Shown: positions 39,799 through 41,725 of the stretch, one piece after another
How positions within the stretch are numbered: position 1 is the first letter of the stretch
How the letters are laid out: each line of letters starts with the position of its first letter
Assembly (NCBI GenBank): GCA_010405405.1
Contig: MU004233.1
Location: 1,005,122 to 1,069,121 of the forward strand
From: Microthyrium microscopicum
Taxonomy: Eukaryota; Ascomycota; Dothideomycetes; Microthyriales; Microthyriaceae
Direction: 5' to 3'
DNA: 64,000 bases
Position numbers and translations under genes: made by a program
Notes under the pieces: model-generated
Seen by the model: the letters and a program-made list of their open reading frames with translations, nothing else
Database searches by the model: none
Told to the model about the DNA's origin: nothing

Positions 39799-39853
39799 CT
39801 AATGCTTAAGGCTTTTATCTTCTTTCAGGATCAATAATTTCTCCCCGGTATAG
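39799..39853 (-). pseudogene. Stranded former 3' end of the NmrA-like gene
   Basis: Read on the minus strand from the left target duplication, the sequence continues the NmrA frame as YTGEKLLILKEDKSLKH and then a stop at 39799-39801. This is a natural ending for the family. It is now separated from the gene by the 830-bp transposon and so should no longer be translated. Confidence 0.8.
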
Positions 39854-39862
39854 TTCACCTTA

Positions 39863-40692
39863 GGCCAATGTTAATCCGCCACCCTAAAATCACTATCCCG
39901 CCACCCTGAAATCACTATCCCGCCTCCATAGTAATATAAAGATCTAGGCTAGTCCTAAATAGGAAAATACGATAGAGATTAATAGTTATAAAGACTAAGT
40001 ACCTCTCACCTTAAAAAGAGTAGTTACTATCTATTAAAGCTATAAATTAACTCTATAATTTAAAAGATTATTCTAGTAAATAACGAAATTAGAATATATT
40101 TAATATGACTATCTTATTATTCGTAATAGAGGTATTAGTTTATAGTTATAAAGATAGGTTAGTAATATATAAAAATAAAATAAATAGAGAATAGTTAGTA
40201 AAGTTATATTCTATAAATATTTTCTACTTTTAAATTAGTTTAAAGTAGTTAAAATAGCTATTATAATAGTAGCTTATAACTATAAGTTTCTCTTAGAATA
40301 TTTAAGTAAAGTAGCCTATAGTAGGTAAACTAATTAAATAAAAATAAACTCTAGCTACGTACTTATAATAAAGTACTAAACCTATTTAAAAAGTACTAAC
40401 TCTATTTAGAAAGAAAATATTAAGGTTATAGCGTTAGATCTTAGGTTTAGCGCTATAATCTAGATTTCTTCTTTTAGCTATTTTAGGTTAGTAAATACTA
40501 CTAAATAGAGAAGATATTTATAGAATTTTATTTACTAACTATCCCTATATAGCTAGATTATACTTACTTCTAGCCTAAACTATAGAAACCATAGCCTATT
40601 TAGATATAGCCTACTAATTAAAGCAATGGAGGCGGGATAGTAATTTCAGGGTGGCGGGATAGTGATTTTGGGGTGGCGGATTAACATTGGCC
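39863..40692. mobile_element. Mutator-like TIR element (non-autonomous), 830 bp, in the NmrA-like gene
   Basis: The ends are 67-bp inverted repeats, starting GGCCAATGTTAATCCGCCAC, at 39863-39929 and 40626-40692; they differ at only two or three positions. Each arm contains an internal direct repeat of about 23 bp (CGCCACCCT.AAATCACTATC). A perfect 9-bp target duplication TTCACCTTA flanks it (39854-39862, 40693-40701). Long TIRs and a 9-bp duplication are the marks of the Mutator (MULE) superfamily. The interior is AT-rich, poor in CpA/TpG, and codes for nothing, so it seems to have been hit by RIP while the TIRs were spared. No transposase is present. Confidence 0.85.
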
Positions 40693-41725
40693 TTCACCTT
40701 ACCCATCCATTCCTTCAAGCCCTTCGTTCGATCCGGCACAATCTTGTCCAAGAATTCGTAATCTCTTGTGATCAGACCCTTATTGTCAGCACTAGCCTTA
40801 TACAAGTTCCACCAGTTGGTAAAGTTCTCTCCATAAGTCATCGTCAAGGTGCTGTCATCTTTGGTACTTTGGAATCCAATCTTAGTTTCTGGTCCCTTGG
40901 GCAGATACTGCCAGGCTTCAGCGTTCCAGTATTGGGCGGGAATATCATTGTACTTTGCTGCCTTTTGAGAGTGAGCGGCAAAGGTCTCGGCAAGTTCGTT
41001 TCCAGAGACATGAGCGGTTGCAATACCGAAATCCAGGCCGGTTGACTGCGAAGGGTGGGAAAGTGCCCAGTGGACGTATTTGCCAAAGTCATCAAGGTCG
41101 ATGAAAGGAATTGCGCCGTCAGCTAAAGGCAGGTTGAAAGTAGCACTTCCATCCTCCTCCTTGGTTGGTGTCATGACCAAGGATAGCATCTGAAGATACG
41201 GTCCCGATCGGATGATAGTCCATGCCATCTTGGAGTCTTTCTGGGCATGCATCCATTCTAGATCTAACGTTAGTTGCAATCTCATAAAAAGTGGTTGTGA
41301 TACTCGCCTTGGACTCGAGCTTTGCCTTCATAATGTCCAGCATACAACTTAGGATCATAGTTTGATTTCTTGCCATTGTAGTCCAGACCACTGTAGATCA
41401 AGTGTTTTACTCCGGCTCTGGCAGCGAGCTCAAAGAGGCGAATGCCCCAGAATGTCTCTGCTTGTTCGCCAAGGGCAAATCCATCAGTGTTGACGAGGAC
41501 AAAATCGGCCTCTGAAGCAGCAGCCAGGAATGCGGTAGTGTCGTAACCACTTCCAACGGAGCTTACAGCGAGCTTCACATTTGGTAGGGCCGCGAGGGCT
41601 TCGGCGTGTGCTGAAGTTGCGCTTCTCGTCAGAGCTACGGTGTTATATTCGTTGGTTGTGGAGAGATATTGAGCGACAGCTCCGCCTTGTGCACCTGTGG
41701 CACCAACAATGAGGATTGTTTTCAT
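40614..41725 (-). CDS. NmrA-like NAD(P)-binding protein with transposon-derived C-terminus
   Basis: Two exons on the minus strand, 41725-41308 and 41257-40614, give 353 residues. The N-terminus has the Rossmann dinucleotide motif VGATGAQGGAV (7-17). Further family marks are HYEGKARV, WTIIRSGPYLQML and FIDLDDFGKYVHWAL. NmrA-like proteins are atypical short-chain dehydrogenases acting as redox sensors or oxidoreductases. The intron (41258-41307, 50 bp) needs a GC donor (AAG/GCGAGT) and a CTAG acceptor; this joins RVQ to EWMHAQKDSKMAW exactly as the family requires, and no GT donor keeps the frame. The last ~25 codons, after WMGKVK, run into the inverted repeat of the Mutator-like element (ANVNPPPQNHYPATL...), replacing about 18 native codons now stranded at 39799-39853. 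Confidence 0.88.

Follow-up and report, generated by a model that had tools for sequence, protein, structure and literature searches.

A recent Mutator-like insertion and a predicted transposon-derived C terminus in an NmrA-like gene of Microthyrium microscopicum

In the 64,000-nucleotide stretch of Microthyrium microscopicum DNA analyzed here (the window), a putative non-autonomous Mutator-like element (MULE) lies in the last exon of an NmrA-like gene and is predicted to give the encoded protein a new C terminus. Judging from sequence comparisons, we consider it reasonably probable that a decayed MULE inserted recently, and that the locus would now encode a 353-residue protein with a transposon-derived tail, its core kept and its transcript ending within the element. 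The case is a clean one, in that the terminal repeat of a transposon would act as the coding end of a host gene and the state before insertion can be read alongside it. Coordinates are collected in Table 1.

Table 1. Insertion, host gene and elements with related ends. Positions lacking a contig label are window positions; a slash within a motif marks a splice junction.
Feature	Position	Strand	Remarks
Inserted element, 830 bp	39863-40692	.	non-autonomous MULE, without transposase
Target site duplication, copy 1	40693-40701	-	sense TAAGGTGAA; holds AAG/GTG, a possible splice donor
Target site duplication, copy 2	39854-39862	-	sense TAAGGTGAA; TAAG/, a possible splice acceptor
Terminal inverted repeat, right arm	40626-40692	-	two 22-bp subterminal repeats
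Terminal inverted repeat, left arm	39863-39929	+	gene-sense end GGATTAACATTGGCC; TTAAC branch-like motif near possible acceptor
Exon 1, NmrA-like gene	41308-41725	-	start codon 41725-41723; 139 codons plus one base; Pfam PF05368 on joined protein
First intron, 50 nt, GC-AG	41258-41307	-	AAG/GCGAGT ... TTAGATCTAG; CTAAC branch-like site; from intron enumeration, inference from conservation
Host part of exon 2	40702-41257	-	ends ...LKEWM plus first two bases of next codon
Element-encoded tail	40614-40692	-	last base of junction codon, 25 codons (ANVNPPPQNHYPATLKLLSRLHCFN), stop TAG 40616-40614
Stranded native 3' end of CDS	39799-39853	-	last base of N codon through end of NYTGEKLLILKEDKSLKH, stop TAG 39801-39799
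AATAAA, possible poly(A) signal	40527-40532	- (gene sense)	inside element, about 80 nt after new stop
Element with related ends, twin of window element	C7:403153-403982		own 9-bp duplication GTTCAGAAT
Element with related ends, 7.7 kb	C5:875614-883297		9-bp duplication
Element with related ends	C14:228428-229071		9-bp duplication
Element with related ends	C5:433272-443471		9-bp duplication; PF10551 match C5:442271-442555
Element with related ends	C8:845518-856081		9-bp duplication; PF10551 match C8:854109-854357
Element with related ends	C7:1240322-1243267		9-bp duplication; PF10551 match C7:1242088-1242333

The 830-bp element is flanked on both sides by perfect copies of the 9-bp duplication TTCACCTTA. 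An earlier note had described such a terminal inverted repeat (TIR) element in the last exon of the gene, and both its length and its duplication are confirmed. The inverted-repeat search returns arms of 68 nt that are 97% complementary, a figure that counts one matching base of the duplication; with a weaker inner part included, the arms reach about 98 to 101 bp at 86%. Each arm contains two 22-bp subterminal direct repeats. The insertion point falls in codons 325 to 328 of a 345-codon gene, in its last exon. The minus-strand NmrA-like gene had been recognized correctly, but its upstream end is at 41725, outside the interval previously given for it (39854-41257).

The predicted protein matches the Pfam NmrA family with an E value of 6.3e-32 (111.8 bits, where the curated cut-off is 27), and its relatives in the PDB are HSCARG/NmrAL1, CtdP, and NmrA. 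Identity to two paralogues over the matched parts is 41% (paralogue C1) and 37% (the other paralogue); the Pfam and identity queries used a 354-residue version, whereas the final model has 353 residues. Enumeration of possible first introns yielded 16 choices that keep the frame, among which the GC-AG intron at 41307-41258 fits the paralogues best, giving HYEGKARVQEWM aligned beside HYYGKGHVEQWM of C1. A GT-AG intron at 41303-41258 was rejected, as it breaks the frame and leaves 186 residues. The 16 choices include six with GT donors, and these were set aside too, each losing part of the stretch conserved in the paralogues. In general, GC-AG introns are known in which the donor is good in other respects. 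In the GC-AG model all 327 codons upstream of the insertion are open and align with the paralogues. The gene is thus likely to be otherwise undamaged, as had been claimed, but only under the GC-AG first intron.

One of the paralogues, C2 (C2:2284044-2285015), is 53 to 55% identical over 96% of its own length to NmrA proteins from Sphingomonas and Rhizobium plasmids, and is closer to these than to the same-genome paralogue C1 (36%). Gene transfer between bacteria and fungi is a possible origin of this likeness.

With the element in place, the reading frame ends at 40614-40616 after 353 residues; with the flanks joined, it ends at 39799-39801 after 345. The two products have 327 residues in common. 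After these, the joined form has its 18 native residues (NYTGEKLLILKEDKSLKH) and the interrupted form has 26 new residues (K plus ANVNPPPQNHYPATLKLLSRLHCFN), encoded by one junction codon and 25 codons inside the element. At the sequence level, the gene does read in frame into a new C terminus, and the last 18 or so native codons do lie intact across the element with their stop, as the earlier note had it. That note also had the frame running 25 codons into the TIR and stopping there; 25 codons are indeed inside the element, but the stop falls about 10 bp past the 68-nt arm, within the longer and weaker arm. Digestion of the predicted tail with trypsin would release, for example, ANVNPPPQNHYPATLK.

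The end of paralogue C1, LKQWMERVGYDGDKMV..., resembles the stranded native sequence, LKEWMGKVNYTGEKLL.... Of 2000 shuffles, 33 reach the score that the 18-residue native end has against the final 20 residues of C1. For C2 and the bacterial homologues, two proteins on Sphingomonas and Rhizobium plasmids, the corresponding numbers are 1216, 512, and 1491. The likeness to one paralogue, found in one of four comparisons, lends modest backing to the view that this segment is the former C terminus. For the new tail, comparison with C1, C2, and the two bacterial proteins gives nothing better than chance (1547, 178, 657, and 1172 of 2000 shuffles), and these four comparisons with paralogues and bacterial homologues do not support the idea that it is a natural C terminus, a match that the earlier note had named as a refutation if seen in orthologues. 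Scans of prokaryote genomes for relatives confirmed none.

Conservation ends at about LKEWM-KV, beyond which C1, C2, and the two bacterial homologues vary in both length and sequence. By this alignment, the insertion comes directly after the last conserved motif, with the variable end replaced. Since the lost segment is variable and lies behind the last motif conserved in the paralogues, the Rossmann core is probably kept in the predicted tailed protein, which may be near-neutral in effect; folding of the 353-residue product is plausible. An AlphaFold model of paralogue C1 built from a four-row alignment (mean pLDDT of 55.0, last 16 residues below 50) is too poor to judge how the lost end packs.

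At least six further elements with similar ends are present among the best candidates scored in the 36.9-Mb genome. These ends read GGCCAATG or GGGCGATG, and 9-bp duplications, each of different sequence, flank all seven elements found with them. A decayed MULE transposase domain (PF10551) scores above the curated cut-off in three of the seven. Stop codons interrupt all 17 PF10551 matches listed for the genome, with no intact transposase among them, and no frame of 40 or more residues lies wholly within the 830-bp element. The duplications, the PF10551 relics in related elements, and the lack of a transposase in the window copy together support its assignment as a non-autonomous MULE; the label "Mutator-like," applied earlier, fits these data and the long inverted repeats.

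Two further features of the family were seen. About 175 bp of the element interior (window 40375-40549) resembles AT-rich repeats on contigs C12, C10, and C1 at 77 to 81%, and also sequence beside the C14 element; it is possibly a captured or nested fragment. Near 879700, TIR-like ends stand back to back in the interior of the 7.7-kb element C5:875614-883297, which is probably a composite of two elements.

A twin of the window element, on C7, is identical to it at 827 of 830 positions. Two of the three differences are of the CA versus TA type, one in each copy. Because the twin differs at so few bases and has a duplication of its own, the window insertion appears to be recent; origin of the twin by segmental duplication was rejected, since the duplications differ between the two sites. 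Since the two copies share the decayed interior, RIP-like decay is most likely older than the last transposition. The mobilizing transposase may have come in trans from a copy that has meanwhile disappeared, none of the listed matches in the assembly being intact. When the flanks of the twin are joined, a frame of 249 codons without a stop spans its site, a length that none of 500 Markov resamples reaches (maximum, 213). Interruption of a gene by the twin as well was nevertheless set aside, as this frame may be non-coding.

The decay spares the element ends. The interior of the window element has a GC content of 22.6%, with 4 CA+TG dinucleotides against 60 AC+GT. Across the 14 arms of the seven elements, CA+TG and AC+GT number 95 and 81 in the outermost 65 bp, 36 and 58 at 65 to 130 bp, 23 and 91 at 130 to 200 bp, 22 and 132 at 200 to 300 bp, 10 and 117 at 300 to 400 bp, and 38 and 132 at 400 to 600 bp; three of the arms were cut 1 to 2 bp off register, and the short elements, whose arms were truncated at 410 or 320 bp, contribute few if any counts to the last bins. 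Every one of the 14 arms has 5 to 8 CA+TG in its outermost 65 bp. Interior depletion is weakest in the element at C7:1240322 (left arm, 7/7 at 130 to 200 bp and 13/16 at 400 to 600 bp). These counts indicate that RIP-like mutation depleted the element interiors and left the outermost 65 bp or so largely intact. A TIR-like copy inside the C5:875614 element, near 879710, is mutated; this single case argues for position, rather than sequence, as the basis of the sparing.

Sparing of the outermost 65 bp or so would have helped to keep the tail frame open. Entering the element from the gene side, the three frames are open for 3, 25, and 14 codons; from the other end they are open for 3, 7, and 14. 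The NmrA-like gene enters in the longest of these, the 25-codon frame. A host frame that runs into a spared MULE end can thus continue for a number of codons, here 3, 14, or 25, before it meets a stop.

In the reading that we favor, a non-autonomous MULE that had already undergone RIP-like decay recently transposed into codons 325 to 328 with the usual 9-bp duplication, an order of events suggested by the decay that the two copies share. Its ends kept GC-rich sequence, one of the three frames at the entered end is open for 25 codons, and the gene enters in that frame. Given the GC-AG intron, the locus would encode 353 residues, 26 new ones at the C terminus standing in for 18, with loss of a variable segment, a core probably kept, and an effect that is perhaps near-neutral. 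Transcription probably ends within the AT-rich element, although the AATAAA found there is weak evidence for a poly(A) site, because this motif readily occurs by chance when the GC content is about 22%.

The strongest competing explanation, which we regard as possible but distinctly less likely, is that the insertion has produced a loss-of-function or knock-down allele. Here the locus would be silenced, its mRNA destabilized, or the protein spoiled by the tail, and the open frame would be incidental. The insert is RIP-like and AT-rich, and such DNA within the gene could silence it. The conserved residues are retained solely if the first intron is of the GC-AG type, a need that could itself be a sign of decay, and the function of the gene could be taken over by its two paralogues (41% and 37% identical where they match). 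Against this stand the 327 open upstream codons of the GC-AG model, in alignment with the paralogues; but the insertion, as its near-identical twin shows, is young, so decay of the gene would not yet be visible.

Much less probable is that the element serves as a newly formed intron. Splicing from AAG/GTGAAG in copy 1 of the duplication to CCTAAG/GTGAAC in copy 2, by way of the TTAAC branch-like motif, would cut out 839 nt, precisely the element and one copy of the duplication, and leave the native mRNA unaltered, as in transposon-derived introners. The earlier note had named splicing out of the element as a refutation, but not this exact route. In this improbable one-step origin, a fungal MULE with 9-bp duplications would have created an exactly excisable intron, with both splice sites coming from the duplicated AG/GT and the branch site from the RIP-spared terminal repeat. 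Of 34 splice combinations that reach the native stop, 25 were compared, and among these the 839-nt splice alone restores the native sequence unchanged. AGGT occurs in only 10 of the 975 9-mers of the interrupted CDS, so that AG/GT in the duplication is a coincidence of about 1%. Splice sites recruited from target site duplications are described for introners (PMC9860276).

The splice signals themselves speak against exact excision, which we rate as unlikely because each of the three, donor, branch, and acceptor, departs from the consensus seen in the window. Where a CTRAC branch motif follows, there are 18 GTRNGT donors against 3 in a control, and 0 of GTGAA against 2; where TTAAC follows, there are 7 GTRAG donors against 11, and 1 of GTGAA against 0 (the control is a downstream stretch, and is small). 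Among 31 candidate CTRAC introns in the window, AAG acceptors number 2 against 5.6 expected and TAG acceptors 18 against 7.1. Many of these candidates are due to chance, given that 20.8 appear per copy in a small null of 10 order-1 Markov resamples of the window. Eighteen of the 31 are 40 to 66 nt long and the rest 78 to 129 nt, in a scan that is blind above about 130 nt. In such fungi, introns are seldom long. A stronger-looking donor, TGG/GTAAGG, lies 5 nt upstream of AAG/GTG, and a rough score of the splice combinations puts two above the exact 839-nt route and two level with it, all four of which lose residues. Counted by eye, AGGT is present on either strand in one of the seven duplications, that of the window element alone. 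If the splice did occur, the host would make a mixture of native protein from spliced transcripts and transposon-tailed protein from unspliced ones, and the locus would offer an uncommon opportunity to test how a DNA transposon gives rise to an intron in a fungus. It would also represent a DNA-transposon route to introns in fungi, whose introners are so far reported to be without target site duplications and TIRs (PMC9860276).

An assembly chimera is the least credible alternative of all: a near-identical 830-bp copy elsewhere in the genome is something that assemblers could misplace, but the duplications are perfect, differ in sequence between the two sites, and enclose copies that differ at three bases.

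We return to the MULE insertion with a predicted new tail and compare it with known systems. MULEs in general have 8- to 11-bp duplications, long TIRs, and a propensity to insert in or near genes (PMC6446971). Like Hop of Fusarium oxysporum and VdMULE1-3 of Verticillium dahliae, the window element has long TIRs (68 to about 100 here, against 86, 82, and 53 bp in VdMULE), subterminal direct repeats, and PF10551 in its long relatives (PMC3441728, PMC6446971). Unlike them, it is without transposase, and the family members seen in the genome are decayed. It ends in GGCCAATG, whereas Hop1 and VdMULE have the terminal consensus GGNAA (PMC3441728); because this terminus is absent, we do not file the element as Hop.

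With introners, the insertion shares a target site duplication that could supply both splice sites, and terminal inverted repeats are present (PMC9860276). It differs from them in number and in signal: introners occur as many near-identical copies at intron positions, whereas two full-length copies are found here among the matches listed, and the splice signals are weak. A limited literature search found no fungal gene with a C terminus derived from a terminal repeat. The nearest parallel is VdMULE7, for which an in-frame fusion of host and MULE sequence, involving a nitrilase, is predicted; there, as here, a fungal host gene is joined in frame to a MULE (PMC3441728). In VdMULE7 the fused part is transposase coding sequence, whereas in the window it is the terminal repeat, with no sign of former coding (PMC3441728). 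The event is thus of a known kind, and the window holds a well-preserved, young example of it.
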